Below, in pieces: positions 17,231 through 32,912 of a stretch of 33,430 nt of DNA. Origin of the DNA: Candidatus Nanopelagicales bacterium (GTDB lineage: Bacteria > Actinomycetota > Actinomycetes > S36-B12); assembly GCA_017854795.1 (NCBI GenBank), contig JAFMHB010000005.1:74143-107572 (forward strand). The letters are read 5' to 3'. Below the pieces are notes generated by a model. That model ran no database searches, was not told where the DNA came from, and saw nothing but the letters and a program-made list of their open reading frames with translations. A program made the position numbers and the translations under genes. Within the stretch, counting starts at the first letter, position 1. Every line of letters begins with the position of its first letter.

Positions 17231-17244
17231 CCGGAAATCTTCAG

Positions 17245-18270
17245 TTACTCCCCTGGAATCCGACCATCTAACAACGGCTGGGCAGGATCCCACGTTGTTC
17301 CATCCCGTTGATCCTTGCGGCGCCGAGCAATTGCACTGAGGGCCTCCAGAACCACACGATTACCCAGAAGTGCCGTGATGTCGGCATGGTCAAATGGTGG
17401 GGATACTTCAACAATATCCATGCCAACAACTGGAAGTTCGTAGCAAATCCTGCGAACCGCGTCGAGTAATTCTCGCGCGCTGAGACCGCCGGGCTCAGGA
17501 GTGCCGGTCCCTGGTGCATGCCCTGGGTCACACACATCAATGTCAACACTGAGAAAAATCCCATCACAATCAGCCATTGCGATCTCAAACGCCTGTGTCA
17601 GACATTCATTGAGTCCACGAGTAACGATTTCCGTCATCTCGTAGGAGCGCATTCCTTGCTCAGCCATCCAACCGAGTGTTGCCGGTTCGGGCCAATAACC
17701 TCGCAATCCAATTTGCAGGAACCTATCTCCACGAACCGCCCCTGATTCAATCAGTCTGCGCATTGGTTGACCGTGTCCAATTAACGAACCAAAAGTAATA
17801 TCACCGGTGTCAGCATGTGCATCAAAATGAATCACTCCAATTCTTCCCCAACCATGAGCCCGAGCCACACCTGTTGCATCAGGCCAAGTAATCGTGTGGT
17901 CACCGCCAAGCACAATCGGGATAGCCCCGGTCCGCGCAATTTTCTCGATTTCGACTTCAAGGTCGACACATGAACGGGCCGCATCCCCGCTGTACAACTC
18001 GACATCGCCTGCATCGACAACCTTCAAGTCCGTCAAACCATCAACCCTCATTGCAAGTGATGGCCTGCTGCCGTCATGTTCCAAATAACAGGCCGCCCGC
18101 AGCGCCTGCGGACCAAAACGCGCACCCGCCCGATATGACGTCCCACCGTCGAATGGTGCACCAACTATGACAACATCGGCGTCGGCAAAACTCGTGAGCT
18201 CATCAAGATCGCACTCAGGCACACCCAAGAAGGTGTAGTTGGGACCAAATTGACTTCCGTATCTCGTCAT
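17245..18270 (-). CDS. Agmatinase-family ureohydrolase
   Basis: This is a manganese (or nickel) dependent ureohydrolase that releases urea from a guanidino compound. Agmatine to putrescine is the likeliest reaction given the neighbours. The 341-residue protein has all metal-binding motifs of the arginase/agmatinase family: GGDHTI (H125), FDAHADTGD (D150, H152, D154) and SVDIDVCDPGHAPGTGTPEP (D243, D245). The ATG at 18270 has GGTGAG upstream and lies 15 nt after the stop of the FAD oxidase gene, so it is the last gene of the pot operon. Guanidinobutyrase, guanidinopropionase or a guanidine hydrolase cannot be excluded from motifs alone. Confidence 0.85.
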   Translation of the reverse strand: MTRYGSQFGPNYTFLGVPECDLDELTSFADADVVIVGAPFDGGTSYRAGARFGPQALRAACYLEHDGSRPSLAMRVDGLTDLKVVDAGDVELYSGDAARSCVDLEVEIEKIARTGAIPIVLGGDHTITWPDATGVARAHGWGRIGVIHFDAHADTGDITFGSLIGHGQPMRRLIESGAVRGDRFLQIGLRGYWPEPATLGWMAEQGMRSYEMTEIVTRGLNECLTQAFEIAMADCDGIFLSVDIDVCDPGHAPGTGTPEPGGLSARELLDAVRRICYELPVVGMDIVEVSPPFDHADITALLGNRVVLEALSAIARRRKDQRDGTTWDPAQPLLDGRIPGE

Positions 18271-18285
18271 AAACTCACCCTACTC

Positions 18286-19698
18286 TTAAGAATCGAAGCC
18301 AAGGCCGAGTGAATCAAGTAAACGTAACCACAGATTACGCTTCCCCTTTTCTCGGTCTGCCCTCTGCAAAGATTTGGTGGTCCACGAAATTACCCAACTG
18401 CGAAATGGTTCCGGCGGAAATGGCAGTGGCTTTGTCTTGACCATTCGGAGTTTTGTTCGTGCGGTTTCTCGCCCCTGAAGGAGATCCAGTGACGTCAGCG
18501 CGGCAAAACGCGAAGCCCCCACCCCTAGCCCGGTAAATCCCGCGACGTACACAGTTTTGCCCCCATGGGCTTTTCCCCAGAAGGCACTAAATCGTGAACA
18601 GGTGTCGATCGCACCTCCCCAGCCGTGAGAGAAATTTACATCGGCCAGTTGTGGGAATGTCTGCACAAAATGATCGGCTAACCGTGCGAATGAGTCAAAA
18701 TCTGTATCGAACTCGGGCTTAACGCCGGCTTTGCCGTGATAAAGCGCGTCATATCCTCCAAATAGTATGCGACCGTCTTCGGTGACTCGGTAGTAATGAA
18801 ATTGATTGCCGCTGTCACCCACACCCTCGCGATTCAACCAGCCAATTGATGCCCGCTGCTCGGTGCTGAGTGGTTCGGTTACCAAGACGTAGTCGTAAAC
18901 CGGCACTATTAAGTGTTTGAGTCTTTTCAGTAATGGTGGATAGGCATTCGTTGCCAAAACAACCAAGCGACCTGTGACGTCATGACCACGCACCTTTACA
19001 AGAACGGAATTTCCCGAATCTTGCAATTGATCAACTTCTGAGTCCTCGAAAATTTCTACGCCCAAACGCTCAAGTTCCCGGGCCAACCCCCAGGCCAACC
19101 GAGCCGGATCCACCACCGCAACTTCGGGGTCGAAAAGTGCTCCCTGGTAAATCGGAGAGTTGATTCTTGATCGAATCTGATCTGACGTTAAGTATTGAGA
19201 ACTAACCCCCAAATCATTCATTGCATCATGGACCTCTTGCAACTCTCGTGCTTGATAATCCTGTGTTGCCACATCAATCTCACCGGAGACAAGCCAATCG
19301 CACTCGATCTTCAATTGACTTATTCGGGCATCGATCTCAGTCAAATTTTGTGATCCCAATCGAAGTAGTTCCGGCATTTCATCTGGCCAGCGTGCAAGGC
19401 CGTTACTAAAACCGTGTGTCAGCGAGGCAGCGACAAAGCCACCGTTTCTACCCGTAGCTCCACTCGCAATGCGATCACTTTCGAGAACGACAATCTTCCA
19501 GTGCGGATTCTCCAGTACAGCCTCAAGCGCTGACCAAAGACCGGTAAAGCCTGCTCCAATAACAACCAGGTCGGCTTCAATGTCTTGATTGACAGGAGGC
19601 ATTGCAGCGGGTCGCTGCAAATTATCCAACCAGAAACTTTCATGCCGGAGGGACTTGGTTTTGGTATAACCATTTTGTGAGGGTATTTCACTAAACAC
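18286..19698 (-). CDS. FAD-dependent amine oxidoreductase, PuuB/DadA-like
   Basis: This is a DAO-family flavoprotein predicted to oxidise an amine, most likely putrescine or a gamma-glutamyl derivative, to an aldehyde. The 470-residue protein has the FAD-binding Rossmann motif VVIGAGFTGLWSALEA (about 45-60), followed by ASGATGRNGGFVAASLTHG typical of PuuB-like oxidases. The C-terminal flavin region includes GYDALYHGKAG, HGWGGAIDTCSRF and VAGFTGLGVGASRFAALTSL. A basic tail of about 50 residues follows. The start is GTG at 19698 with AAGGA 6 nt upstream. It lies 157 bp after potC and just before the ureohydrolase. No gamma-glutamylputrescine synthetase (PuuA) is in view, so it may act on free putrescine, but this is inference. 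Confidence 0.82.
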   Translation of the reverse strand: MFSEIPSQNGYTKTKSLRHESFWLDNLQRPAAMPPVNQDIEADLVVIGAGFTGLWSALEAVLENPHWKIVVLESDRIASGATGRNGGFVAASLTHGFSNGLARWPDEMPELLRLGSQNLTEIDARISQLKIECDWLVSGEIDVATQDYQARELQEVHDAMNDLGVSSQYLTSDQIRSRINSPIYQGALFDPEVAVVDPARLAWGLARELERLGVEIFEDSEVDQLQDSGNSVLVKVRGHDVTGRLVVLATNAYPPLLKRLKHLIVPVYDYVLVTEPLSTEQRASIGWLNREGVGDSGNQFHYYRVTEDGRILFGGYDALYHGKAGVKPEFDTDFDSFARLADHFVQTFPQLADVNFSHGWGGAIDTCSRFSAFWGKAHGGKTVYVAGFTGLGVGASRFAALTSLDLLQGRETARTKLRMVKTKPLPFPPEPFRSWVISWTTKSLQRADREKGKRNLWLRLLDSLGLGFDS

Positions 19699-19707
19699 GC
19701 GGGGTCC

Positions 19708-19750
19708 TTACGTCGAAGTTAACGTAATGAGTCAGACCGAGCGCCTGACT
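19708..19750 (-). promoter_or_regulatory. Paired inverted repeats in front of the FAD oxidase gene
   Basis: Two perfect 6-bp inverted repeats lie back to back just upstream of the GTG start: TTACGT (19708-19713) with ACGTAA (19722-19727), and AGTCAG (19730-19735) with CTGACT (19745-19750). They sit in the only sizeable gap (157 bp) of the pot operon. They could be an operator, a small RNA hairpin or chance. No clear -35/-10 pair was found next to them. Confidence 0.35.
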
Positions 19751-19855
19751 TTCCCACCAATCCCTTCGGACCTAACATCTAGTTGACTTAAATATTTTAC
19801 TCAATCACTTTTGCACCCGATTAAAAAGGCTTTTCAATTGTGAAACGGTTTCAGA

Positions 19856-20698
19856 TTAACTCTTAGGAAGAAGCGCGTCAATATTTACTGGGTTCTTTGA
19901 GATGTCATTTTCCAACGCCTTCCGCCTGCGGCTTCCCACAAACTGGCTAATGAGGACGATCAGCAGTGCGATCACGAATACGAGGGTCGCTAGAGCGTTA
20001 ACCTGTACTGGAATTCCTCGCTGCGCGGCCCCCCAGATGTAGATCGGAAAGGTCACAACAGTCCCCGCGTTGAAGAAACTGATTATGAAGTCATCAAATG
20101 ACAGTGAGAAGCCCAACAGCGCCGCACCGGCAATGCCAGGGGCCACGAGTGGGAGGGTGACATAGCGAAATGCTGCCCGAGGACCGGCGTACAAATCACG
20201 GGCCGCTTCTTCAAGTCTGGGATCCATTCCCTGTAGCCGAGCCTTAACGGTCACGACAACAAATGAAATCGTGAACATGATGTGGGCGATTACGATGGTG
20301 ATTTCACCCAATGGAAACCGCAAATTCAAGAACAAGGCAAGAAGGCTGGCACCCATAACCACTTCCGGTGTAGTCATGGGAAGAAAAATCAGGAGATTGG
20401 TGGAAGAGCGTCCGCGAAACCTGTACCGCACGAGAGCAAACGCAATCATGGTTCCCAAAATCGTAGCGATCAGAGTTGAAACTAGGCCGATTCGAATGCT
20501 GATCATGAACGAATCGCACACGCCTGGAACTCCACAAATATTCTTCCAACCATCCAATGAAAAGGTATTCCAACTGGTGTTGTATTTGCCCTCCGGCTTA
20601 TTAAAACTCAACACGGCAACGACAGCAATGGGTATGAATAGGTAAACCAAAACCGCGACAGCGACAACCCCAAGTAAGTTGCGACGAATCCAGCGCAT
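19856..20698 (-). CDS. potC: Polyamine ABC transporter permease (PotC-like)
   Basis: This is one of two inner-membrane permeases of a spermidine/putrescine-type ABC importer. The 280-residue protein has an N-terminal membrane helix (VVAVAVLVYLFIPIAVVAVL) followed by five more hydrophobic segments. The conserved cytoplasmic EAA loop reads EEAARDLYAGPRAAFRYVTL and contacts the ATPase. The SLSFDDFIISFFNAGT segment is a PotC/PotI hallmark. Its ATG overlaps the potB stop by one base (TAATG at 20696-20700), giving translational coupling. It ends before a 157-bp gap and the amine oxidase gene. Confidence 0.9.
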   Translation of the reverse strand: MRWIRRNLLGVVAVAVLVYLFIPIAVVAVLSFNKPEGKYNTSWNTFSLDGWKNICGVPGVCDSFMISIRIGLVSTLIATILGTMIAFALVRYRFRGRSSTNLLIFLPMTTPEVVMGASLLALFLNLRFPLGEITIVIAHIMFTISFVVVTVKARLQGMDPRLEEAARDLYAGPRAAFRYVTLPLVAPGIAGAALLGFSLSFDDFIISFFNAGTVVTFPIYIWGAAQRGIPVQVNALATLVFVIALLIVLISQFVGSRRRKALENDISKNPVNIDALLPKS

Positions 20699-21588
20699 TA
20701 AACCAGATCCTCCGTTCCAGCCCGGCGAATATAGGTGAATACCAACACGAGAATCGAGGCCATCAACACGAATGACAGGGCACTAGCCGTTGGGTAGTCT
20801 CGGAATTCGATGAAGTTGGTTTGGATCACGTTACCGATCATTCGGTCTTGAGTGGAACCCAATAATTCAGAGTTGATGTAATCACCGGTCGCAGGAATGA
20901 ATGTCAGCAAAGTTCCCGCAACGACACCCGGCAATGAGAGCGGCCAAGTCACCTTACGAAATGTTGTGAATGCTGATGCGTAGAGGTCATTTGACGCCTC
21001 TAATAAGCGTGGATCGATTTTTTCCAAAGCTGCATAGAGTGGCAGGATCATAAATGGCAGAAAATTGTAAGTAAGTCCTGCGATGACAGCGATTCCCGTG
21101 TTAAGAATTCGATCATCAGGTAGCAAATGCAAGTAATTGAAGAATGACGTGATGAATCCTTCGTCTGCGAGAATCGTCTTCCATGCGTAGGTTCTCAACA
21201 AGAATGATGCAAACGACGGTGCAATAACAAGAACAAGCATGAGTGCCCGCCACCGACCGGCCTTGAAAGCAATGAAATAGGCCAAGGGGTACGCGATAAG
21301 AAGCGCGAGTCCTGTCGCGATACCTGCGTATACAAATGAGCGAAGAAATTGTGGCCAATACTCCACTAATGCATCAGAGTAATTACTTATTTGAAAGGCC
21401 GGGACGTACTGTCCTGATTGTCCCGCTACAGGAGCTTGCAAACTGGTTAAAAACAATGTCACGAACGGTATGGCAAAGAAGATCGCCAACCAGGTCATGC
21501 CGGGAAGTAACAAAAAATAACCGGTACGAGATTTTCTCTGACCGACTACACCACTTGTGCTACCTGTTGAGGGAAGAACCGCAACCAC
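20698..21588 (-). CDS. potB: Polyamine ABC transporter permease (PotB-like)
   Basis: This is the partner permease of PotC in the polyamine importer. The 296-residue protein has six predicted membrane helices, starting with LLPGMTWLAIFFAIPFVTLF. It has an EAA loop at LLEASNDLYASAFTTFRKVT followed by WPLSLPGVVAGTLLTFIPAT, the PotB/PotH pattern, and a GDYINSELLGS segment. It starts 2 nt after the potA stop and overlaps potC by one base, so potA, potB and potC are one tight transcription unit. Confidence 0.9.
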   Translation of the reverse strand: MVAVLPSTGSTSGVVGQRKSRTGYFLLLPGMTWLAIFFAIPFVTLFLTSLQAPVAGQSGQYVPAFQISNYSDALVEYWPQFLRSFVYAGIATGLALLIAYPLAYFIAFKAGRWRALMLVLVIAPSFASFLLRTYAWKTILADEGFITSFFNYLHLLPDDRILNTGIAVIAGLTYNFLPFMILPLYAALEKIDPRLLEASNDLYASAFTTFRKVTWPLSLPGVVAGTLLTFIPATGDYINSELLGSTQDRMIGNVIQTNFIEFRDYPTASALSFVLMASILVLVFTYIRRAGTEDLV

Positions 21589-21590
21589 GC

Positions 21591-22742
21591 TCAGGCTCCT
21601 GCTGCCATCGCTTGCACCGTCGTGGCCAGAAGCGTTTCCCCACCAGCAAGACCAAAAGTATGCTCGGGAGCCCAGTGCACCAGCACCCTGTCACCTACAC
21701 TGGAGCGATCTCCCACAATCACATTCTGTTCAAAGACTGTGATGTTTTGACCCCAGGGCACCGTGATCAAATATTGAGTGGACACCCCAGCATATGAGAC
21801 GTCGACTACTGTCCCCTCCAAAATGTTATTGCCGGTTGGGATTTTCTCGCGGTCCGGAATGTCAAGGACTGTCATTTTCTCAGGGCGAATGCCAACAATT
21901 ATTTCGTCGCCTGTAGCCGAGTTGCGTTGCACCGGAACTAAAAATTTAATTCCATTCGCTAGGACTTCAATCATGTTTGAATCACTAGCAATCCGTGTGC
22001 CAGCGAATAGATTGGACTGACCTAGGAAATTCGCCACGAAAACAGTCTTGGGTAATTCATAGATTGAGGCAGGGTCACCCAGTTGCTCAATACGGCCAGC
22101 GTTCATGACAGCGATCGTGTCAGCCATAGTCATGGCCTCTTCCTGATCATGGGTCACGTGAACGAATGTAGTTCCCACTTCCGTTTGAATCCGCTTCAAT
22201 TCAATTTGCATCTGGCGGCGCAGTTTGAGATCAAGAGCACCCAAAGGTTCATCCAGTAGTAGAACATCAGGCTCATTAATTAGTGCTCGGGCAACGGCAA
22301 CGCGTTGTTGTTGCCCGCCGGAAAGTTGGGTTGGTTTGCGCCTTGCCATGGGCGCTAGTTCAACGAGTTCCAACATGGCGTTCACTGCAGGCTCAACATT
22401 CTTGATGCCACGACGACGCAACCCAAAGGCGACATTCTCGAAAATATCCAAATGCGGAAATAACGCGTACGACTGGAAAACCGTATTGACCGGTCGCTGG
22501 AATGCGCGAAGCGAGGTAATGTCTGATTCACCAATCGAGATACGACCCGACGTTGGATCTTCTAATCCGGCGACCATACGCAGAGTAGTCGTCTTGCCAC
22601 ACCCAGAAGCTCCCAAGAGTGCGAAGAATGAACCTGCAGGGATGGTCAAGGTGAGGTCGTCCACAGCAGCAACGTCACCGAACATCTTGGTGAGATTTGA
22701 TAGGTGCAGATCCTCCACATTGCGTTCGCGATCGTGAACCAC
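21591..22742 (-). CDS. potA: Polyamine ABC transporter ATP-binding protein (PotA-like)
   Basis: This is the ATPase that powers polyamine import. The 383-residue protein has Walker A GASGCGKT (residues 44-51), the signature LSGGQQQRVAVARAL, Walker B VLLLDEPLGALD, and an H-loop in FVHVTHDQEEAMTMA. The C-terminal TOBE domain (about 250-370) is characteristic of PotA/PotG and related MOI-type ATPases. The start is GTG at 22742 with AAGGGG about 7 nt upstream, and a second GTT codon follows. It lies downstream of potD behind a strong stem-loop and immediately upstream of potB. Confidence 0.92.
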   Translation of the reverse strand: MVHDRERNVEDLHLSNLTKMFGDVAAVDDLTLTIPAGSFFALLGASGCGKTTTLRMVAGLEDPTSGRISIGESDITSLRAFQRPVNTVFQSYALFPHLDIFENVAFGLRRRGIKNVEPAVNAMLELVELAPMARRKPTQLSGGQQQRVAVARALINEPDVLLLDEPLGALDLKLRRQMQIELKRIQTEVGTTFVHVTHDQEEAMTMADTIAVMNAGRIEQLGDPASIYELPKTVFVANFLGQSNLFAGTRIASDSNMIEVLANGIKFLVPVQRNSATGDEIIVGIRPEKMTVLDIPDREKIPTGNNILEGTVVDVSYAGVSTQYLITVPWGQNITVFEQNVIVGDRSSVGDRVLVHWAPEHTFGLAGGETLLATTVQAMAAGA

Positions 22743-22778
22743 CAGCCGCCCCTTCAGGTTGAATATTTGAGAGAATTT

Positions 22779-22806
22779 GAGGGGATCGAATCACTTCGAT
22801 CCCCTC
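22779..22806 (-). terminator. Intercistronic stem-loop between potD and potA (12-bp perfect stem, 4-nt loop)
   Basis: GAGGGGATCGAA (22779-22790) pairs perfectly with TTCGATCCCCTC (22795-22806) around a 4-base loop. On the minus strand it begins 9 bases after the potD stop codon. It is not followed by a U tract. The likely role is partial attenuation or protection of the potD mRNA 3' end, giving more binding protein than membrane components, as described for other ABC operons with the binding protein first. The role is inference. Confidence 0.7.
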
Positions 22807-22815
22807 GAGAAAAAC

Positions 22816-24021
22816 CTAGTTCCCGGTCGCCTTTTGGAATAGTCGTTCATAAGCTTCATTCTGCTCGGCGGAAAGTTCCATAAAGACGTATGCCGAATCA
22901 AGTATCTCTGTGGATGGGAAAATCCACTCACTTGTCGCTAATTCGGGATCAATATTTTCCATGGCCGCCTGTGCGCCTTCTACGGGACACAGATAGTTGA
23001 CCCAAGCAGCAACCTCAGCCGCCACTTCAGGTTCGTAGTAATAGTTCATTACTTTCTCGGCATTTTTCTTGTGCTGAGCCAACGAAGGAATCAGCATGTT
23101 GTCCGTCCACAACGTGCCGCCACTTTCGGGCAAACTGAATCCGAAATCCTCGCCAAGCGCAATAACGTCTCCCGACCATCCAATAACGGCTATGACATCA
23201 CCGCTATCCAGCGCGCCAATGTAGTCATTTCCCGTTACCTGGCGAATTTGACCGTTATCTACCTGCTGTGTTAGGGCCGCAATAGCTTCTTCGAATTCGG
23301 CGTCCGTGAAGTCTGATGGGTTGTAACCCAGCCAGGCCAGAATGCACCCCATCGTGTCCCGCATTTCTGAAAGTACCGTGATTCTTCCCTTTAACGCGGG
23401 GTCAAAAAGTTCATCGAGTGAGACGAGCGCGTCCTTACCCGTTGCAGACTTAAGAGCGGGGACGTTATATCCCAATCCAGCAAAGCCAGACTGCCATGGC
23501 AAGGTGTAGTCGCGGTTGATATCGAATTCCACCGCTGAAAGCCGAGGGATCAGATTCACCGAATTCGGGATGCTCGCTTTGTCAAGTTTCTGAGCGTACC
23601 CGTTTTGAATCCACAGTGCAGCCATCCAGTCGGTGAGGACAACAATGTCGCGGCCAATATCGCGTCCCTGTTCTAGTTGGGTACGCACTTTGGCAAAAAA
23701 CTCATTGTTGTCGTTGACATCTTCCGTATAGGTGACATCGATTCCCGTTGCGGATTTGAACTCTTCCAGAGTGGGGTACGTGCCAGTCTCTTCATCTGTA
23801 TCCAAATAAGACGGCCAGTTGGACCAATTGACCAGCATTTCCGTGTCGGACATGTCTTCAGCAGCGGACGCTTCCGTGGAATCGCCCGAACTTGTGCCAC
23901 AAGCGGTGGCGAGCATTGCCGCTCCACCAATCCCGGCGGCTTGGAGCAACCTCCGGCGTGACACTGAAGATCGCATACCTTGGGCTATTGCTGCAATTGC
24001 TTCTGGACGGTGTGAATTCAT
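22816..24021 (-). CDS. potD: Polyamine ABC transporter substrate-binding protein (PotD-like), Tat-type lipoprotein
   Basis: This is the extracytoplasmic receptor of the polyamine importer. From the ATG at 24021 the protein is 401 residues and starts with a twin-arginine lipoprotein signal: SRRRLLQAAGIGGAAMLATAC, split here as SRRRLLQ and GGAAMLATAC, with the lipid-bearing cysteine at position 41. The mature part has the family-typical MLVNWSNWPSYLDTD and WLGYNPSD regions and ends with an NEAYERLFQKATG segment like PotD/PotF. I prefer this start because GAAGGGA lies in front. A longer frame beginning at 24129 adds 36 residues with no signal-like character. First gene of the pot operon. Confidence 0.9.
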   Translation of the reverse strand: MNSHRPEAIAAIAQGMRSSVSRRRLLQAAGIGGAAMLATACGTSSGDSTEASAAEDMSDTEMLVNWSNWPSYLDTDEETGTYPTLEEFKSATGIDVTYTEDVNDNNEFFAKVRTQLEQGRDIGRDIVVLTDWMAALWIQNGYAQKLDKASIPNSVNLIPRLSAVEFDINRDYTLPWQSGFAGLGYNVPALKSATGKDALVSLDELFDPALKGRITVLSEMRDTMGCILAWLGYNPSDFTDAEFEEAIAALTQQVDNGQIRQVTGNDYIGALDSGDVIAVIGWSGDVIALGEDFGFSLPESGGTLWTDNMLIPSLAQHKKNAEKVMNYYYEPEVAAEVAAWVNYLCPVEGAQAAMENIDPELATSEWIFPSTEILDSAYVFMELSAEQNEAYERLFQKATGN

Positions 24022-24235
24022 TGGGATTCCCTTCGTGCGCTCGTGAGTAATGCGATTCTCTTTTCGTGCCATTAATTTCCGTACTATGGCGCTCATGCTA
24101 TTGCATGGGCTATTGAATGGGACACACATTATGGTCTTCCGAGTCTATCTAGATTGACCTAATGTTTACCCCATCTTCGCCCCATTCCGAAAAAAAGTAC
24201 GGACAAAAGTCTCTAAATAATACAAGCGCATCACA

Positions 24236-24342: not shown

Positions 24343-25179
24343 ATGAGCATTGTTCGTGCTGCCCTAGTTCAGACTGACTGGACCGGCGACAAAGAGTCCA
24401 TGATTGTTAAGCACGAACAATACGCACGAGAGGCGGCGGCGGCAGGCGTAAAAGTTATCTGTTTCCAGGAACTTTTTTATGGGCCCTATTTTTGCCAGGT
24501 TCAAGATGCCGAATTTTACGCCTACGCTGAAGCCATTCCCGGCCCGATCACTGAGCGCTTTCAAGCACTTGCTCGTGAACTCGAGATGGTCATGGTTTTG
24601 CCCATGTATGAAGATGCGGGTCCGGGCTTTCTTTACAACACTGCAGCGGTCATTGATGCCGATGGAAGTTACCTCGGCAAGTACCGCAAGCAACACATTC
24701 CGCACGTCAAGGGCTTCTGGGAGAAGTTTTACTTCCGCCCAGGCAATGGTGGTTACCCAGTTTTCGACACAGCCGTAGGCAAAATTGGTGTTTACATTTG
24801 CTACGACCGCCACTTCCCCGAAGGTTGGAGGGCCCTTGGCCTTAATGGCGCACAAATAGTCTTCAACCCTTCAGCCACATCTCGTGGACTATCCGAGTAC
24901 CTGTGGAGCATTGAACAACCAGCTGCAGCCGTCGCCAATGAGTATTACGTGGGAGCAATTAACCGCGTAGGTATCGAAGATCTCGGTGATGACGACTTCT
25001 ACGGACAGTCATACTTTGTCGACCCAGAGGGTAGTTATGTCGGAGAAAAAGGCGATCCTTTCAAGTCGGAACTCATCATTCGCGACCTTGATTTGGAATT
25101 AATTACCACGGTGCGGACCCGCTGGCAGTTCTACCGCGACCGCCGCCCCGATGCTTATCAGGATCTCACCCGCCCATAA
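24343..25179 (+). CDS. N-carbamoyl amidohydrolase of the nitrilase superfamily (beta-ureidopropionase-like)
   Basis: Predicted to hydrolyse an N-carbamoyl amine, most likely N-carbamoyl-beta-alanine to beta-alanine, CO2 and ammonia. The 278-residue protein has the complete Glu-Lys-Cys triad: E43 in CFQELFYGPYF, K116 in GKYRKQHIPHV and C153 in GVYICYDRHFPEGWR. The ATSRGLSEYLWSIEQPAAAV stretch and NEYYVGAINRVG resemble ureidopropionase-type enzymes found with dihydropyrimidinases. The ATG at 24343 follows GGAG. It is the first gene of the operon and lies 28 nt before dihydropyrimidinase. Because a polyamine operon is divergent from it, N-carbamoylputrescine amidase is the main alternative, and the gene's own operon argues for the pyrimidine role. 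Confidence 0.85.
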   Translation: MSIVRAALVQTDWTGDKESMIVKHEQYAREAAAAGVKVICFQELFYGPYFCQVQDAEFYAYAEAIPGPITERFQALARELEMVMVLPMYEDAGPGFLYNTAAVIDADGSYLGKYRKQHIPHVKGFWEKFYFRPGNGGYPVFDTAVGKIGVYICYDRHFPEGWRALGLNGAQIVFNPSATSRGLSEYLWSIEQPAAAVANEYYVGAINRVGIEDLGDDDFYGQSYFVDPEGSYVGEKGDPFKSELIIRDLDLELITTVRTRWQFYRDRRPDAYQDLTRP

Positions 25180-25207
25180 AACTCGCCGTCCAGACGGAAG
25201 GATTGTC

Positions 25208-26626
25208 ATGACAATTTTGATAAAGAATGGCCAAGTTGTCTCACCACAGGGAGCCATTGCGGCAGACGTTTTGGTTGACGGGGAAAAGATTGTAGCCGTT
25301 TTCTCACCAGGTGATACGTCTATGGGAAATGAATTGGCTTCGAGCGCCGACACGGTAATTGATGCCGCAGGAAAATACGTTATCCCCGGTGGTGTTGACG
25401 CACACACCCATATGGAATTGCCCTTTGGTGGGACTTTCGCCTCCGACACCTTTGACACAGGCACACTGGCTGCCGCATGGGGTGGTACTACCACCATCAT
25501 CGATTTTGCTGTTCAAAAAACTGGAGAAAGGGTGCAAGACTGTTTGGCCGCTTGGCATGAAAAAGCCAGCGGAAACACCCATATTGATTACGCGTTTCAT
25601 CAGATCCTCGGCGGAGTAGATGACGAATCGCTCAAGGCTATGGACGAGCTCGTCAACGAAGGTATAACTAGTTTTAAATTATTTATGGCATATCCGGGTG
25701 TCTATTACAGTGATGACGGCCAAATATTGCGGGCCATGCAAGCTGCCTCCAACAACGGCAGCATGATCATGATGCACGCTGAAAATGGAATAGCGATCGA
25801 CGTATTGGTGGCCCAAGCACTTGCTGAAGGCAAGACCGACCCCAAGTACCACTCCCTCACCAGGCCATGGGAAACCGAGGCCGAAGCTACGAATCGGGCG
25901 ATCATGCTCTCCCGAATTACGGGCGCACCTCTGTATATCGTTCACATGTCAGCCAAACAGGCCGTGCAAGTTTTACAGTCGGCCAAAAATGAAGGTTTGA
26001 ATGTCTTCGGTGAAACCTGTCCACAATATCTTTACCTCTCACTAGAGGAACAACTTTCACAGCCAGGATTCGAGGGTGCCAAGTGGGTATGTTCCACTCC
26101 CCTTCGTTCACAGGCTGAAGGTCACCAAGAAGAACTTTGGAAATATCTTCGAACAAATGATCTGTCCATCGTCAGCACCGACCATTGCCCATTTTGCTTC
26201 AAAGAGCAAAAGGAATTAGGCCTGGGGAACTTCGCCGCGATCCCTAATGGAATTGGCTCAGTTGAGCATCGCCTTGATCTTCTCTATCAGGGTGTGGTCA
26301 ATGGACACATTTCGCTTGCCCGGTGGGTGGAAATCTGTTCTACAACTCCGGCCCGCATGTTTGGCCTTTACCCCCAGAAGGGTGTGATCGCCCCCGGATC
26401 GGATGCAGACATTGTCATCTACAACCCAGCGGGTCGAACTGAAATTGGCTTCCATAAGACACACCACATGAACATGGATCACTCAGCGTGGGAGGGGTTC
26501 AATATTGATGGTCACGTTGATACTGTCATTTCACGAGGCAAAGTCGTTGTCGACAACAACACTTACCTTGGCCACAAGGGGCACGGTAAGTTTCTCAAGC
26601 GGGGACTCAGCCAGTATCTGATTTAG
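25208..26626 (+). CDS. hydA: Dihydropyrimidinase / D-hydantoinase
   Basis: This cyclic amidohydrolase opens dihydrouracil or dihydrothymine (or hydantoins) to the N-carbamoyl amino acid. The 472-residue protein has the metal-binding DAHTH motif (H66, H68), the lysine that is carbamylated in this family (K157 in TSFKLFMAYPG), and later ligands in HAENG, VHMSAKQAV and STDHCPF. It has the C-terminal beta-sandwich strands with GSDADIVIYNP. I chose the ATG at 25208 with GGAAGGA upstream. A longer frame from 25151 overlaps the preceding gene and adds 19 residues without family similarity. It is flanked by the carbamoyl hydrolase and mmsA, which supports reductive pyrimidine breakdown. Confidence 0.92.
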   Translation: MTILIKNGQVVSPQGAIAADVLVDGEKIVAVFSPGDTSMGNELASSADTVIDAAGKYVIPGGVDAHTHMELPFGGTFASDTFDTGTLAAAWGGTTTIIDFAVQKTGERVQDCLAAWHEKASGNTHIDYAFHQILGGVDDESLKAMDELVNEGITSFKLFMAYPGVYYSDDGQILRAMQAASNNGSMIMMHAENGIAIDVLVAQALAEGKTDPKYHSLTRPWETEAEATNRAIMLSRITGAPLYIVHMSAKQAVQVLQSAKNEGLNVFGETCPQYLYLSLEEQLSQPGFEGAKWVCSTPLRSQAEGHQEELWKYLRTNDLSIVSTDHCPFCFKEQKELGLGNFAAIPNGIGSVEHRLDLLYQGVVNGHISLARWVEICSTTPARMFGLYPQKGVIAPGSDADIVIYNPAGRTEIGFHKTHHMNMDHSAWEGFNIDGHVDTVISRGKVVVDNNTYLGHKGHGKFLKRGLSQYLI

Positions 26627-26675
26627 TCCCTTTTAGTTGTCCAACACATGCCACATGAGAATCAAGGAGATACAG

Positions 26676-28163
26676 ATGCACACTATTCCCCATTGGATCA
26701 GCGGCCAAGAGGTAGTACCGACCTCAGGAAATTTCGGACCAGTCTTCGATCCTTCAACGGGGGAACAGCAAGCGCAGGTAGGTCTTGCCAGCACTGCGGA
26801 GATGGATGCTGCTATAGCCACAGCAAAAGCAGCTTTTCCCGCGTGGCGCTCCACCTCCCTCTCACGCAAGTCGGAGATTCTGTTTCGTTTCCGGGAGTTG
26901 GTTGTTGCCAATAGGGATGAAATTGCCCGACTCGTCTCTATTGAACATGGCAAGGTCCCCAGCGATGCAGCGGGTGAACTAGCTCGGGGAATCGAGAACA
27001 TTGAGTTTTCCTGCGGTATCCCTACTCACATGAAGGGTGGGTTCAGCGAGCAAGTTTCCGGCGGTATTGATGTTTACTCCATCAAGCAACCCCTCGGCGT
27101 TGTTGCCGGGATCACCCCCTTCAACTTTCCAGCGATGGTTCCTCTCTGGATGTTCACGAATGCAATTGCTACAGGGAACACCTTTATTCTAAAGCCCAGC
27201 GAAAAAGATCCCTCCGTCACCGTGTTTATGGCCAAGTTACTTAAAGAAGCAGGCCTACCTGACGGAGTCTTCAATGTCGTTCAGGGAGACAAGGTTGCAG
27301 TAGATGCCATCCTGAATAACCCGGACATCGCTGCCGTGAGTTTCGTTGGCTCAACCCCAATCGCCAAGTACATTTATTCGACGGGAACCGCGAATGGAAA
27401 GCGAGTTCAAGCACTTGGCGGGGCCAAGAACCACATGATTGTGCTGCCAGACGCCGATATCAACATGGCCGCCGATGCCTCCGTCAGTGCCGGCTTCGGA
27501 TCTGCTGGCGAGCGCTGCATGGCAATTTCCGTCGTCGTGGCCGTCGGTGATATTGCTGATCCTTTGATTGAAGCGATTTCGGCGCGCATTCCGGCCTTGA
27601 AAGTGGGACCAGGTACTGATCCCGAGAACGAGATGGGCCCACTGATTACTGGAGAACACCGCGACAAGGTTGCCTCGTATATCGACGGTGCTGCTTCGGA
27701 AGGCGCCACCGTAGTTGTTGATGGTCGCGAAGGACCACTCCCGGAAAAGGGCTACTTCCTTAACCCATCACTCATTGATCATGTTCGGCCAGGTATGAAA
27801 GTGTATGACGAAGAAATCTTCGGTCCTGTCCTCTCGGTCATTCGCGTTGATACATACGACGAAGCCGTGACGCTGATCAACGACCATCAATACGGAAACG
27901 GCACGGCAATCTTCACCCGCGACGGTGGAGCCGCCCGCCAATTCCAATTTGACATTCAGGTGGGAATGGTCGGTATCAACGTTCCCATACCCGTACCAGT
28001 GGGCTACTACAGCTTTGGTGGCTGGAAGGCTTCAATTTTCGGTGACGCCAACATGTATGGACCTGCCGGAATTGAGTTTTACACCCACACCAAAACCGTC
28101 ACTTCTCGGTGGCCAGATCCGTCGACAAGTTCTGTCGACCTGGGATTCCCTCAGACTCGTTAA
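26676..28163 (+). CDS. mmsA: CoA-acylating (methyl)malonate-semialdehyde dehydrogenase
   Basis: MmsA oxidises malonate semialdehyde or methylmalonate semialdehyde with NAD and CoA to acetyl-CoA or propionyl-CoA. The 495-residue protein has IPHWISGQEV at the N-terminus, GVVAGITPFNFPAMVPLWMF, FVGSTPIAKYIYSTG, the nucleophile C281 in SAGERCMAISVVV, and the MmsA-type ending FYTHTKTVTSRWP. I chose the ATG at 26676 because AAGGAGA lies 5 nt in front. A TTG at 26637 would add 13 residues without a ribosome site. Following dihydropyrimidinase, it would handle the malonate semialdehyde derived from beta-alanine (from uracil), or methylmalonate semialdehyde (from thymine). Confidence 0.92.
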   Translation: MHTIPHWISGQEVVPTSGNFGPVFDPSTGEQQAQVGLASTAEMDAAIATAKAAFPAWRSTSLSRKSEILFRFRELVVANRDEIARLVSIEHGKVPSDAAGELARGIENIEFSCGIPTHMKGGFSEQVSGGIDVYSIKQPLGVVAGITPFNFPAMVPLWMFTNAIATGNTFILKPSEKDPSVTVFMAKLLKEAGLPDGVFNVVQGDKVAVDAILNNPDIAAVSFVGSTPIAKYIYSTGTANGKRVQALGGAKNHMIVLPDADINMAADASVSAGFGSAGERCMAISVVVAVGDIADPLIEAISARIPALKVGPGTDPENEMGPLITGEHRDKVASYIDGAASEGATVVVDGREGPLPEKGYFLNPSLIDHVRPGMKVYDEEIFGPVLSVIRVDTYDEAVTLINDHQYGNGTAIFTRDGGAARQFQFDIQVGMVGINVPIPVPVGYYSFGGWKASIFGDANMYGPAGIEFYTHTKTVTSRWPDPSTSSVDLGFPQTR

Positions 28164-28201
28164 ACATATCGAGAACTATTCGCTGACGAAAGGTTAAAGC
28201 C

Positions 28202-29221
28202 ATGGATTTTGGTGTGGTAATGCAATGCACTCCCCCGGCTGCACGGGTTATTGATCTTGCGCGCAAGGCGGAAACATACGGTTTCAAATATGTCTGGACC
28301 TTTGACTCACACATTTTGTGGGAAGAGCCATACGTTATCTATAGCAAAATTCTCAACGAAACACGCAACATCACCATTGGACCAATGGTTACGAATCCGG
28401 CTACTCGGGACATAACAGTCACAGCATCAGTGTTTGCGACATTGAACGAGATGTACGGAAACCGAACCGTGATCGGAATTGGTCGAGGTGATTCAGCCGT
28501 TCGAGTAACCAATGGCAAGCCCGTAACCGTGGCCGAACTTCGGGAAGCCGTTGTTAACCTCAAAGGGCTGGTTAATGGCGAGTCCATTGATTACAACGGC
28601 AATGACATTCGTCTCCCATGGGCGGCTGAAAGCCGCACCCCAGTATGGGTTGCTGCCTACGGTCCAAAAGTACTTGCGTTAACGGGTGAGGTGGGCGACG
28701 GATTCATCCTGCAACTCGCCGACCCTTCCATCGCTGAATGGACCATTAAAGCAGTAAAAGACGCCGCCAAGGCCGCTGGACGAGATCCAGACGCCGTGAA
28801 AATTTGCGTTGCTGCTCCTGCCTACGTCACCGAAGATGTTGCTCATGCCCGCGACCAACTCCGCTGGTTTGGTGGAATGGTCGGTAATCACGTGGCTGAC
28901 ATTGTCGACCGATACGGCGAGGGCGGTGGAGCCGTTCCGCAGGCACTCACCGACTACATCAAGGGTCGAAAAGGCTATGACTACAACGATCACGGCCAAG
29001 CGGGAAACACCCATGCTGATTTCGTCCCCGACGAAATTATCGACCGTTTTTGCATCATAGGTCCGGTAGAGGAGCAGATTCGACGCCTAGAGGAGCTCAA
29101 GTCACTAGGCGTTGACCAGTTCGCCCTGTACCTCCAGCATGACGACAAAGATCACACTATGGCCGAGTATGGAGAAAAAGTGATTCCAGCTGTATCAGAG
29201 AAGCGCAAAGCAAAAGAGTAA
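28202..29221 (+). CDS. Luciferase-like (LLM) flavin/F420-dependent oxidoreductase
   Basis: A 339-residue TIM-barrel enzyme of the LLM class, which uses FMN or F420. Family signs are VIDLARKAETYGFKYVWTFD, GIGRGDSAVRVTNGKPVTVA, PVWVAAYGPKVLALTGEVGD and the late EEQIRRLEELKSLGVDQFAL. It most resembles, from memory, the TIGR03842 (CPS_4308) group, which I cannot verify here. Length is near the LLM norm and somewhat shorter than the uracil monooxygenase RutA, another LLM protein. It follows mmsA by 38 nt with AAAGG before the ATG and precedes the transporter genes by 2 nt. No dihydropyrimidine dehydrogenase gene is present, so an entry-step role in pyrimidine catabolism is inferred. Cofactor and substrate are not determined. 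Confidence 0.82.
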   Translation: MDFGVVMQCTPPAARVIDLARKAETYGFKYVWTFDSHILWEEPYVIYSKILNETRNITIGPMVTNPATRDITVTASVFATLNEMYGNRTVIGIGRGDSAVRVTNGKPVTVAELREAVVNLKGLVNGESIDYNGNDIRLPWAAESRTPVWVAAYGPKVLALTGEVGDGFILQLADPSIAEWTIKAVKDAAKAAGRDPDAVKICVAAPAYVTEDVAHARDQLRWFGGMVGNHVADIVDRYGEGGGAVPQALTDYIKGRKGYDYNDHGQAGNTHADFVPDEIIDRFCIIGPVEEQIRRLEELKSLGVDQFALYLQHDDKDHTMAEYGEKVIPAVSEKRKAKE

Positions 29222-29223
29222 AG

Positions 29224-30093
29224 ATGGCCTCAACTCGTGATCGAATCTCCAATGGATTTGTATCTTTTTTATGGGCCCTCGCAGGCATCGCAATCATTGG
29301 ACTCATGTGGGAGCTCACAAAACTAATTGGCACGATCATCGATCTTCCTTTTAATACATCCAATCAAGCAATGCCCCACATTTGGACCATGTTTTCGGCC
29401 TTTTCTCTGCCCGAAGTGAGGGGTTCAGACACGACGGTATTTCAAGCTGTCCTTGCCGCTTCAACCTACTCATTGACGCTAGCACTCGGTGGGTTTGTAA
29501 TTGGAGTCTCTGTTGGTCTGCTCCTCGCGATAATCATGCAAAGGTTTTTGTTTTTTGAGCGCGGCCTCCTGCCATTCGTGATCGCCTCGCAAACCGTGCC
29601 TCTTATTGCCCTCGCCCCACTGATTGTCGGGATTGGAAATCAAATTAGTTTTGGACCAATTCAGTGGTCAACGACGTATTCTGTGATGTTTATTGCCGCG
29701 TATCTGGCTTTTTTCCCACTGTCTGTTGGTGCACTTCGTGGCTTGCAAGCGCCAAGTTCCACATCGCTTGAACTGATGCGCTCATACGCTGCAACAAACA
29801 ACAAAGTTTTATGGAAATTACGCTTTCCAGCAAGTATTCCCTACCTTGTACCCGCTCTCAAAGTTTCAGCTGCAGCTGCGGTGGTCGGCACAGTCGTTGC
29901 CGAGATCTCAACAGGAGTTCGAGGTGGGATCGGAAGACTAATGGTCGAATACGCACGCGAAACCACATCCCAGCCAGCGAAAGTTTATGTAGCAGTTTTT
30001 GGCGCAATTTTGTTGGGACTTGTTGTCGCAGCCGCAATTACCGCAGTTGATGTATTGCTCACCCGGAATCTTCCTAAGAAAGGCCTCGCATGA
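29224..30093 (+). CDS. ABC transporter permease (SsuC/ThiX/RibX-like)
   Basis: This is the inner-membrane permease of an importer with an NMT1/THI5-like receptor. The 289-residue protein has a first helix around FLWALAGIAIIGLMWELTKL, then five more hydrophobic segments. The conserved coupling loop is LELMRSYAATNNKVLWKLRF, followed by PASIPYLVPALKVSAAAAVV. It starts 2 nt after the LLM stop with only a weak upstream purine run, and its stop overlaps the ATPase start (ATGA at 30090-30093), so translation is coupled. A second, different permease follows the ATPase, implying a heterodimeric channel. Confidence 0.88.
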   Translation: MASTRDRISNGFVSFLWALAGIAIIGLMWELTKLIGTIIDLPFNTSNQAMPHIWTMFSAFSLPEVRGSDTTVFQAVLAASTYSLTLALGGFVIGVSVGLLLAIIMQRFLFFERGLLPFVIASQTVPLIALAPLIVGIGNQISFGPIQWSTTYSVMFIAAYLAFFPLSVGALRGLQAPSSTSLELMRSYAATNNKVLWKLRFPASIPYLVPALKVSAAAAVVGTVVAEISTGVRGGIGRLMVEYARETTSQPAKVYVAVFGAILLGLVVAAAITAVDVLLTRNLPKKGLA

Positions 30094-30914
30094 CAACCAC
30101 CTTTGATACAGGTAGCGCACTTGCGATTTCCAATGTTTCAAAAGTATTCAACAAGGGCAATGAGAATGAAGTGATTGCGCTCTCTGACGTGAACTTAAAC
30201 GTTCACACTGGAGAATTCATTTCACTTATTGGCCCTTCAGGGTGTGGTAAGAGCACTCTCCTTCGGGTCATTGGGGACCTCACTGGTTTTGACTCGGGCA
30301 GTGTCCAAGTTTCTGGGAAGTCTCCCGAAGACGCTCGCAAGGAGCGCCTTTACGGCATTGCTTTCCAACAGGCGGCCCTCTTTGACTGGCGAACAGTGAG
30401 TAAAAATATTGAACTACCCTTAGAGCTCGCGGGCTGGGATAAGTCCCAGCGTGAAGTGAGATCAGCGGAACTACTCGAGATGGTGCAGCTTTCTGAATTT
30501 GGTAATCACCGTCCTTGGGAACTTTCCGGAGGCATGCAACAACGTGTTGCCATCGCTCGATCACTCGCTGTTGACCCACCCTTACTGCTCATGGATGAAC
30601 CATTTGGTGCACTCGACGAAATGACCCGTGAACGTATGCAGAATGAACTGTTACGCATCCGCCTGGACACTGGCAAGACAATTGTTTTTGTCACTCACTC
30701 AATCCCCGAAGCGGTATATCTCTCGGATCGGGTGGTCGTAATGTCACCTCGACCAGGTCGAATCACCGCGGAAATAAACGTTGACCTGGGGGAACGGACT
30801 GAAACAACTCGGGAATCCGATCACTTCTTCCATTGCGTGACATCAGTGCGTGAAGCCCTGCGTCTCCACGACACGTCAGGAACATCCACTTCTTCATTCC
30901 GGGGTGAAGTCTGA
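30090..30914 (+). CDS. ABC transporter ATP-binding protein (SsuB/TauB-like)
   Basis: The ATPase subunit of the importer, 274 residues. Walker A is GPSGCGKS (48-55), the Q-loop is GIAFQQAALFDWRTV, the signature is LSGGMQQRVAIARSL, Walker B is LLLMDEPFGALDE, and the H-loop is VFVTHSIPEAVYLSDR. These are typical of the nitrate/sulfonate/taurine/thiamine-precursor subfamily. It overlaps the upstream permease by 4 nt and the downstream permease by 1 nt (TGATG), so the three genes are tightly coupled. Confidence 0.92.
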   Translation: MTTTFDTGSALAISNVSKVFNKGNENEVIALSDVNLNVHTGEFISLIGPSGCGKSTLLRVIGDLTGFDSGSVQVSGKSPEDARKERLYGIAFQQAALFDWRTVSKNIELPLELAGWDKSQREVRSAELLEMVQLSEFGNHRPWELSGGMQQRVAIARSLAVDPPLLLMDEPFGALDEMTRERMQNELLRIRLDTGKTIVFVTHSIPEAVYLSDRVVVMSPRPGRITAEINVDLGERTETTRESDHFFHCVTSVREALRLHDTSGTSTSSFRGEV

Positions 30915-31687
30915 TGAATTCGAAGCTGAGTTATCTGTGGCCACCGATCTTGATTGCTGCACTGTTTCTCGGCGCCTGGCAACTCCTCGTGGTCGTTCAG
31001 GACCTCAAGCCATTCCTACTTCCCGCTCCAAGCCTGATCGCTTCCGAATTCTCCAATGGCGCAACCCTCATGTGGGGTGCAGCTTTTTACACTGGCACGA
31101 CAGCATTTTTGGGTCTGTTATTTGGCACAATTGCGGGGCTATTTATGGCCCTGCTTGCGCAGAGGTTCATCACAGTCAACAAACTGGTGACACCACTCGC
31201 CGCTGGATTGGCAACGGTACCGATTATTGCTTTAACTCCAATCTTGAACAACATGTTTAACATCACGAGTCGCACCCCACGTGTATTGGTTACCGCCATA
31301 ATTGTGCTGTTTCCCATTTTCGTGAATGTGATGCGTGGCCTCATTCAAGTCAATCCCCTTCAAGTTGAACTCATGCGCTCACTCAACGCGGCTCCGAGAA
31401 CCACACTTAGAATCCTTCGCATCCCGAACGCCATTCCATTTTTCTTCACCGGCCTCAAAATTGCTGCGCCGTTGGCAGTGATTGCGGCATTGGTTGCCGA
31501 GTATTTTGGGGGTCCCCAAGAGGGCCTCGGTAGTCGAATAGCGAGCGCTGCCGCAAACACCGCTTATGGTCGGGCTTGGGCATACGTATTGGCTGCGATT
31601 ATCACGGGTTTGATTTTCTATTTAGCCATAATTGCCATCGAGCGCCTCGTGACGCCTCGCAGTGCGCAACTGCACGTAAAGGCTTAA
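30914..31687 (+). CDS. Second ABC transporter permease (SsuC/ThiX/RibX-like)
   Basis: The partner permease of the importer, 257 residues with about six hydrophobic segments. It begins YLWPPILIAALFLGAWQLLV. The coupling loop is VELMRSLNAAPRTTLRILRI, followed by PNAIPFFFTGLKIAAPLAVI. The loop shares its first residues with the other permease but the rest differs, so these are diverged paralogues rather than a recent duplication. It starts in a 1-nt overlap with the ATPase gene, and the binding-protein gene follows after 34 nt. Confidence 0.88.
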   Translation: MNSKLSYLWPPILIAALFLGAWQLLVVVQDLKPFLLPAPSLIASEFSNGATLMWGAAFYTGTTAFLGLLFGTIAGLFMALLAQRFITVNKLVTPLAAGLATVPIIALTPILNNMFNITSRTPRVLVTAIIVLFPIFVNVMRGLIQVNPLQVELMRSLNAAPRTTLRILRIPNAIPFFFTGLKIAAPLAVIAALVAEYFGGPQEGLGSRIASAAANTAYGRAWAYVLAAIITGLIFYLAIIAIERLVTPRSAQLHVKA

Positions 31688-31721
31688 ACCACACACCGGA
31701 AAATCAAAAAAGGTAGAAATA

Positions 31722-32912
31722 ATGAATAGAGGAAAAAGTTGGATTCGCGTCGCAGCAGTCGCTGCCTCGGGTCTCCTGTTTCTGACTGCGTGTAGCAGTA
31801 GCGACGAAACCGCATCTGAAACAACAGATACAGCAACCACCGAAGAAGGCGCCACAGAGGAAGCCGCTGCTGAGTGCACGGAACTCACTCCCGTCTCACT
31901 TCAACTGCAGTGGTTTGTTCAGGCTCAATTCGGTGGCTATTACGCGGCTAAAGACTTGGGCTACTACGAAGAGCAATGCCTCGACGTAACCATCCTTGAG
32001 GGTGGCGTTGACATCGTTCCGCAGACTGTCCTTGCACAGGGTGGCGCAGACTACGCGATTTCATGGGTACCAAAAGCTCTCGCCTCACGTGAGCAGGGTG
32101 CAGGAATCGTTGACGTCGCTCAGGTGTTCCGCACATCCGGAACACTTCAGGTCTCATGGGCAGACTCCAACATCACAACAGCAGCGGACCTTAAAGGTAA
32201 GAAGGTTGGTAACTGGGGATTTGGAAACGAATACGAACTTTTCGCTGGCATGACCAAGGCCGGACTTGATCCAGCCAATGATGTTGAATTGGTACAACAG
32301 CAATTCGACATGCAAGCACTTCTCAATCGCGAGATTGATGCAGCGCAGGCCATGACCTACAACGAATACGCTCAGGTATTGGAAACAGTAAACCCTGATA
32401 CCGGCGAGCTCTACCAGCCAGCAGACTTCAATGTCATCAACTGGAATGACGAAGGCACCGCGATGTACCAGGATGCAATCTGGGCATCAGAAGAGCGTCT
32501 CGCTGACGCTGCCTACCAAGACACAACCCAGCGTTTTGTTACCGCATCACTCAAGGGTTGGATCCAGTGTCGCGATAACGCGCAGGAATGTGCTGACATC
32601 ATCACGGCAAATGGTTCCAAGCTTGGCGCAAGCCACCAGCTTTGGATGATGAACGAGGTCAACAAGTTGATCTGGCCATCAGCCACGGGTATCGGCGTCA
32701 TTGAGCCAGAACTGTGGGCACAGACGGTAAGTGTTTCCCTGAACACAAAGAACCTCGAAGGGGCAACAATTATCACGGCTGAGCCACCAGCAACGGCATA
32801 CACAAACCAGTACGCGGAGGCCGCAAATGCAGCGCTCACCGCTGAAGGTTTGAATACGACCGGAGATGCTTATGCTCCGATCGAGGTTACCCTCAATGAG
32901 GGTGGCAACTAA
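31722..32912 (+). CDS. NMT1/THI5-like ABC substrate-binding lipoprotein
   Basis: The extracytoplasmic receptor of the importer. The 396-residue protein has a Sec lipoprotein signal ending in LFLTAC, with the lipidated cysteine at position 24, followed by a Ser/Thr/Glu-rich linker to about residue 48. The binding domain begins VSLQLQWFVQAQFGGYYAAK and includes ISWVPKALASREQGAGIVDV and LKGKKVGNWGFGNEYELFAG, the ThiY/RibY/NMT1-like pattern. Related receptors bind pyrimidine and other flat ring compounds, so a pyrimidine substrate is inferred. AAAAAAGGTAG precedes the ATG. It is the last gene of the operon, before a long stem-loop. Confidence 0.88.
   Translation: MNRGKSWIRVAAVAASGLLFLTACSSSDETASETTDTATTEEGATEEAAAECTELTPVSLQLQWFVQAQFGGYYAAKDLGYYEEQCLDVTILEGGVDIVPQTVLAQGGADYAISWVPKALASREQGAGIVDVAQVFRTSGTLQVSWADSNITTAADLKGKKVGNWGFGNEYELFAGMTKAGLDPANDVELVQQQFDMQALLNREIDAAQAMTYNEYAQVLETVNPDTGELYQPADFNVINWNDEGTAMYQDAIWASEERLADAAYQDTTQRFVTASLKGWIQCRDNAQECADIITANGSKLGASHQLWMMNEVNKLIWPSATGIGVIEPELWAQTVSVSLNTKNLEGATIITAEPPATAYTNQYAEAANAALTAEGLNTTGDAYAPIEVTLNEGGN

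Follow-up and report, generated by a model that had tools for sequence, protein, structure and literature searches.

A luciferase-type protein of the TIGR03842 family as a candidate F420H2-dependent uracil/thymine reductase in actinobacterial pyrimidine breakdown

The window, by which we mean the whole stretch of 33,430 nucleotides analysed here, comes from the genome of a Candidatus Nanopelagicales bacterium and carries on its plus strand an operon that spans positions 24343-32912. Its genes are separated by short gaps or overlap, and they follow one another in the order bup-hydA-mmsA-LLM-permease-ATPase-permease-lipoprotein binding protein, where LLM stands for a gene of the luciferase-type LLM class. 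The features of the operon are as follows.

24343..25179, plus strand: N-carbamoyl-beta-alanine amidohydrolase (bup; beta-ureidopropionase type, nitrilase superfamily), step 3; PF00795, 228 bits
25208..26626, plus strand: dihydropyrimidinase (hydA), step 2; TIGR02033, 548 bits, cut-off 393
26676..28163, plus strand: CoA-acylating (methyl)malonate-semialdehyde dehydrogenase (mmsA); TIGR01722, 700 bits, cut-off 448
28202..29221, plus strand: LLM hydride transferase of the TIGR03842 family, the proposed F420H2-dependent uracil/thymine reductase, step 1; TIGR03842, 575 bits
29224..30093, plus strand: ABC importer permease; PF00528
30090..30914, plus strand: ABC importer ATPase of the taurine/nitrate type; PF00005, SaoA/TauB models closest
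30914..31687, plus strand: second ABC importer permease; SaoP/NtrB-like permease matches
31722..32912, plus strand: lipoprotein substrate-binding protein, NMT1/THI5-like; PF09084, 124 bits

The structures in the PDB nearest to the bup product are the Drosophila beta-alanine synthase (2vhh) and the human beta-ureidopropionase (8pt4/6ftq), and its score against the N-carbamoylputrescine amidase model, 243 bits, falls below the cut-off of 410. The closest structures to the hydA product are of the dihydropyrimidinase/D-hydantoinase type; the open reading frame opens at 25151, and its start was set at 25208 because the profile matches begin there. That of mmsA opens at 26637. The operon thus holds a dihydropyrimidinase together with an N-carbamoyl-beta-alanine hydrolase, the pair by which the Pyd pathway is recognized from homology and gene order. 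A preliminary description of this DNA had seen here the later steps of pyrimidine breakdown along with an importer, which the profile scores and the PDB and Pfam matches bear out. It had also placed the LLM gene between mmsA and the importer, and rightly so: the LLM reading frame (339 aa, ATG start) lies 38 bp downstream of the end of mmsA, and the first permease gene begins 2 bp past its stop.

The binding protein of the importer matches 3ix1, a ThiY-type pyrimidine-binding protein, and by this resemblance its ligand is probably a pyrimidine. The likeness to proteins for thiamine-pyrimidine derivatives (3ix1, THI5), together with the fact that enzymes of the hydA family act on hydantoins too, gives some footing to a different reading of the operon, in which the LLM enzyme would be F420-dependent and part of the pathway while its natural substrate would be a different heterocycle leading into hydA, for instance a precursor of a hydantoin or a pyrimidine that is modified or derived from thiamine. 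We consider this unlikely, as mmsA and the beta-ureidopropionase-type genes suit the products of uracil and thymine; the plasmid loci described below speak against it as well.

Back to back with the pyrimidine operon lies a polyamine uptake and breakdown island (window 15881-24129), with a GABA transaminase on the plus strand and an agmatinase, an FAD-dependent oxidase and a PotABCD-type importer on the minus strand. The transaminase of this island may also serve beta-alanine. At the left end of the window there is an Actino-pnp RNA (RF01688, 58 bits) at 774-833 on the minus strand.

The step for which the operon has no conventional enzyme is the first one. No PreT, PreA or RutA was found in the window operon or in the 80 related loci listed, in line with the preliminary description, which had noted an operon devoid of a PreT/PreA-type dehydrogenase. 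The whole genome (2.36 Mb, 99.5% complete) gave the same answer: no PreA-type dihydropyrimidine dehydrogenase exceeded the cut-off of 335 bits on NF006183, the best match reaching 111 bits. The gene behind that match (G000:C22) is a dihydroorotate dehydrogenase, its 348 bits exceeding the cut-off of 269, and was rejected as a dihydropyrimidine dehydrogenase. The genes of F420 biosynthesis, on the other hand, are there, in the form of fbiC (FbiC, a CofGH fusion), fbiB (FbiB, CofE) and fbiA (FbiA, CofD), and the bacterium accordingly counts as a host that makes or salvages F420, a feature by which an F420-dependent luciferase-like hydride transferase (LLHT) is recognized. Two further LLM-like proteins are encoded in the genome, belonging to TIGR03559 and TIGR03617, and neither is RutA. 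As the pathway is represented from step 2 onward but lacks its entry step, the gap counts in favor of the LLM protein as the reductase.

The LLM protein is a member of TIGR03842 by a score of 575.4 bits (cut-off 295.45) over profile positions 1-329 of 329, and it stays below the cut-off of every other LLM family listed in the profile search; the Pfam match is to Bac_luciferase (PF00296, 213 bits). Its AlphaFold model has a pLDDT of 86.9. The best 16 Foldseek matches of this model are all F420 enzymes, with Mer at the top (TM about 0.8), followed by fHMAD, Adf and FGD, while flavin monooxygenases rank lower; the fold is thus a luciferase-type TIM barrel most like those of F420 enzymes, likewise a mark of an LLHT. 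A sequence search also puts Mer first (8qpm, 119 bits). In comparison with the Mer of M. jannaschii, the protein keeps the aspartate that contacts the pterin (D97, equivalent to jMer Asp96) and the valine of the non-prolyl cis-peptide (V63). Glu6, however, which is catalytic in Mer and whose change to Gln drops the kcat to 0.4% (PMC11094777), is replaced by Val6, a residue invariant in 35 sequences, and the score on the Mer model is only 136 bits against a cut-off of 349. A Mer activity was rejected on account of the absent catalytic glutamate and the low model score. The protein thus resembles the F420 hydride transferases of this fold, yet it is not a Mer. Positions 221-264 form a conserved block specific to the family, with the motifs RWFGGMVGNHVADIV and RxGYDYxxHG, and this block may make up the substrate pocket. 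Going by invariance, the candidate proton donors are N229, H230, R256, Y259, D260, Y261 and H264, all in the 229-264 segment, and D97.

FMN is the cofactor of some LLM enzymes, and one LLM protein, RutA, acts on uracil. A flavin enzyme, for instance a uracil monooxygenase like RutA or a reductase that depends on FMN, therefore has to be weighed against the F420-dependent reductase. The protein gave no match to the RutA model (TIGR03612) at E<=1e-5, a model on which E. coli RutA scores 726 bits as a control. The operon is also devoid of a RutB-type gene, and breakdown by way of RutA would go around the conserved hydA. RutA-like chemistry was rejected on these grounds, the missing model match, the missing partners and the conservation of hydA, and with the distribution of F420 genes set out below we regard an FMN enzyme of either kind as quite improbable.

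When 84,980 species genomes were scanned, at least 80 close relatives of the LLM protein emerged, at 65-99% identity (the nearest, L006, is 99% identical), and no relative was found on viral contigs. The neighborhoods were counted in the 70 loci, among the 80 relatives listed, that have at least 3.5 kb of upstream sequence: hydA adjoins the LLM gene in 69 of them and bup in 66. An arrangement of hydA and LLM kept in 69/70 is therefore not a matter of chance. Two loci (L053 and L075) have a non-homologous N-carbamoyl hydrolase of the Zn type in place of bup and still retain the LLM gene; mmsA and the importer recur often but can be missing; and one locus (L044) keeps mmsA-LLM-importer but has no hydA upstream. 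Because the carbamoylase can be swapped and mmsA and the importer dispensed with, the LLM gene is linked to the dihydropyrimidine steps and not to one particular neighbor. In the 47 genomes behind these loci, the window genome included, 33 have CofG, 46 have CofE and none has PreA; the sole genome without CofE is a draft and has CofG. The absence of CofG from 14 of the 47 first seemed to count against F420, yet all 14 have CofE, and several of them carry genes for an F420-0 importer.

The same association holds well beyond the close relatives. Of 296 Actinomycetota genomes sampled evenly, 62 have TIGR03842, and hydA occurs in 59 of these 62 compared with 28/234 of the others (Fisher p 1e-36), CofE in 59/62 compared with 104/234 (p 1e-14); the p-values count each genome as an independent observation, which does not hold for related ones. 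The three TIGR03842 genomes without CofE are drafts, 81-96% complete. Where TIGR03842 and hydA are on one contig, they lie within 10 kb of each other in 46 of 49 genomes. The preliminary description had looked to the co-occurrence of this LLM clade with hydA in genomes that have no PreA, and the linkage is indeed tight (69/70 loci; 59/62 genomes). PreA was found in 0/62 of the TIGR03842 genomes. It is, however, rare in the phylum anyway (2/296), so that its absence alone is weak evidence. In the one sampled actinomycete that has both hydA and PreA (G447), preT-preA and a carbamoylase adjoin hydA, and TIGR03842 is absent. There are also 27/296 genomes with hydA and neither TIGR03842 nor PreA, and with no obvious reductase partner; their dihydropyrimidinase-family genes may be hydantoinases, or these genomes may use yet another uracil reductase.

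It could be argued that the function of the LLM protein is read from context alone, and that the gene is nothing but a neighbor, a general F420 enzyme that shares a transcript with the operon and stands outside the pathway. This we find barely credible: the gene stays linked to hydA in many actinobacterial lineages, with two types of carbamoylase and in several gene orders, and TIGR03842 is seldom seen without hydA (3/62 genomes of the Actinomycetota sample).

The family Microbacteriaceae, in which F420 is patchy, offers a sharper view of the cofactor. Among 200 genomes sampled there, 93 have TIGR03842; CofE is present in 93/93 of these compared with 19/107 of the others (p 2.5e-38, again with genomes treated as independent). 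The LLM gene and cofE are also physically linked: of the 72 genomes that have both on one contig, 65 have them no more than 35 kb apart, and this linkage supports the same conclusion as the p-values. In Microbacteriaceae islands bup-hydA-LLM adjoins cofC, cofD, cofE and an ABC importer, which corresponds to the putative F420-0 transporter of NCBIfam (TIGR03868, 475 bits, cut-off 392; TIGR03869, 494 bits, cut-off 437; the TIGR03873 subunit, at 350 bits, is below its cut-off of 372). In one such locus the genes of the F420-0 type importer are at L104:6018-8891, followed by cofD (8888-9850) and cofC (9887-10486), and loci L102-L109 of the family are alike. The F420 cluster of Salinibacterium includes an FGD gene, at a distance from hydA. 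CofG, the FO synthase domain, is present in only 38/93 of the TIGR03842-bearing genomes and absent from 55/93, so most of these bacteria would depend on salvage or on the import of a precursor. This suggests a widespread scavenging of FO or F420-0 that runs pyrimidine breakdown.

The proteobacterial side rests on plasmid records. On a Leisingera plasmid, the genes cofG-cofH-cofD-cofC-cofE-npdG-LLM form a run with TIGR03842 as its last member. Next comes a RutR-like regulator, whose 194 bits fall short of the RutR cut-off of 368; the other flank has PntAB, an omega-aminotransferase, a Zn carbamoylase, hydA and an NCS1 nucleobase symporter. RutR responds to uracil and thymine, and the presence of a RutR-like regulator and a nucleobase symporter in this operon argues against the reading in which the LLM enzyme serves some other heterocycle. 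Loci L002 (6510-13861) and L114 (Leisingera caerulea plasmid) show such a plasmid-borne, self-contained module of pyrimidine catabolism with full F420 biosynthesis, together with PntAB, the NCS1 symporter and the RutR-like regulator. The F420-LLM operon recurs on a Paracoccus plasmid, where an NMT1-type importer comes after it; hydA was not found on this plasmid. The proteobacterial and actinobacterial LLM proteins form one clade with a support of 97/97, which a distant Rhodococcus LLM also joins on a long branch. A truncated remnant of TIGR03842 (L005:8001-8396) is seen on a Caballeronia plasmid, where its neighbors are a Zn carbamoylase, a gene for alanine dehydrogenase and a transhydrogenase subunit. 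It should be pointed out that most F420 operons on proteobacterial plasmids are without TIGR03842, and one of these, borne on a Paraburkholderia plasmid, has another LLM gene nearby; pyrimidine reduction would thus be one role of F420 and not the only one. As for the cofactor of the LLM enzyme, the presence of CofE in nearly every genome that has the gene (46/47, 59/62 and 93/93) and the position of the gene at the close of F420 operons in two Alphaproteobacteria favor F420 over FMN.

The LLM gene travels with the pyrimidine operon and with the F420 genes, and thus most likely performs the missing first step. We put the probability at roughly four in five that the protein is an F420H2-dependent uracil/thymine reductase which replaces dihydropyrimidine dehydrogenase. 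The proposal of the preliminary description, an entry enzyme dependent on F420H2 or FMN, is thereby supported through the absence of PreA, the F420 genes and the linkage to hydA. Both cofactor and substrate, as well as a hydride transfer in the direction of reduction, are what we infer from this context. In the proposed mechanism, the NMT1/THI5-type ABC importer would take up the pyrimidine, and FGD or NpdG would supply F420H2. F420H2 would pass a hydride to the double bond in the ring of uracil (or thymine), with a proton from a protein side chain, to give dihydrouracil (or dihydrothymine). The dihydropyrimidinase hydA would then open the ring, the beta-ureidopropionase would take off the carbamoyl group to leave beta-alanine (or beta-aminoisobutyrate), a transaminase would produce the semialdehyde, and MmsA would convert the latter to acetyl-CoA (or propionyl-CoA). 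Luciferase-like F420 enzymes that reduce C=C bonds are known, among them the dehydroalanine reductase LxmJ and the 4-alkyl-proline reductases (PMC8498797), which makes the proposed reduction of uracil and thymine plausible.

The TIGR03842 family, the models of the F420-0 importer and the Pyd pathway are already known; the reaction and the link to this pathway proposed here for TIGR03842 were not found in the open-access literature. A text search of a 2021 review of F420 found no mention of uracil and no role of F420 in a pyrimidine reductase, and the same review lists as an unanswered question why Proteobacteria and Chloroflexi make F420 (PMC8498797). On balance, we lean toward the broader view that TIGR03842 is a further uracil/thymine reductase without flavin or Fe-S, that it is the usual entry to the pathway in Actinomycetota, and that it explains why several lineages retain the F420 pathway, import it as in Microbacteriaceae, or bear it on plasmids as in Rhodobacterales. 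A testable reaction is thus offered for a widespread family (62/296 Actinomycetota species, 93/200 Microbacteriaceae), one that would close the gap at the start of pyrimidine breakdown in a phylum that hardly ever has the known enzyme (2/296). If true, pyrimidine reduction would be a reason for some bacteria to make F420, and a concrete physiological role of the cofactor in them, some Proteobacteria included, without covering all F420 makers.

Several known systems invite comparison. TIGR03842 itself (F420_CPS_4043, LLM class F420-dependent oxidoreductase) is a hypothetical equivalog to which NCBIfam assigns no reaction, and the reaction and the pathway are what is proposed here. RutA shares with the LLM protein the superfamily and a place in uracil catabolism; the LLM protein differs in having no TIGR03612 match, none of the downstream enzymes of the Rut operon, and a different predicted chemistry. 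The dihydropyrimidine dehydrogenases, namely PreT/PreA, the eukaryotic DPD and the clostridial PydAc, catalyze the reaction proposed here for the LLM protein, uracil to dihydrouracil, at the same place before dihydropyrimidinase, with variants that take their electrons from NAD(P)H or from ferredoxin (PMC7332683). The LLM protein, in contrast, has an unrelated fold, a single luciferase-type barrel of 339 aa, without the FMN/Fe-S domain of PreA or a sequence match to it. Alike in idea, though it may belong to another family, is the putative F420/LLM yanthine reductase proposed in 2025 in uric acid clusters of Chloroflexota (PMC12507026): there, too, an LLM F420 enzyme would replace an Fe-S/flavin reductase in the reductive breakdown of a nucleobase, in a purine pathway and in another phylum.
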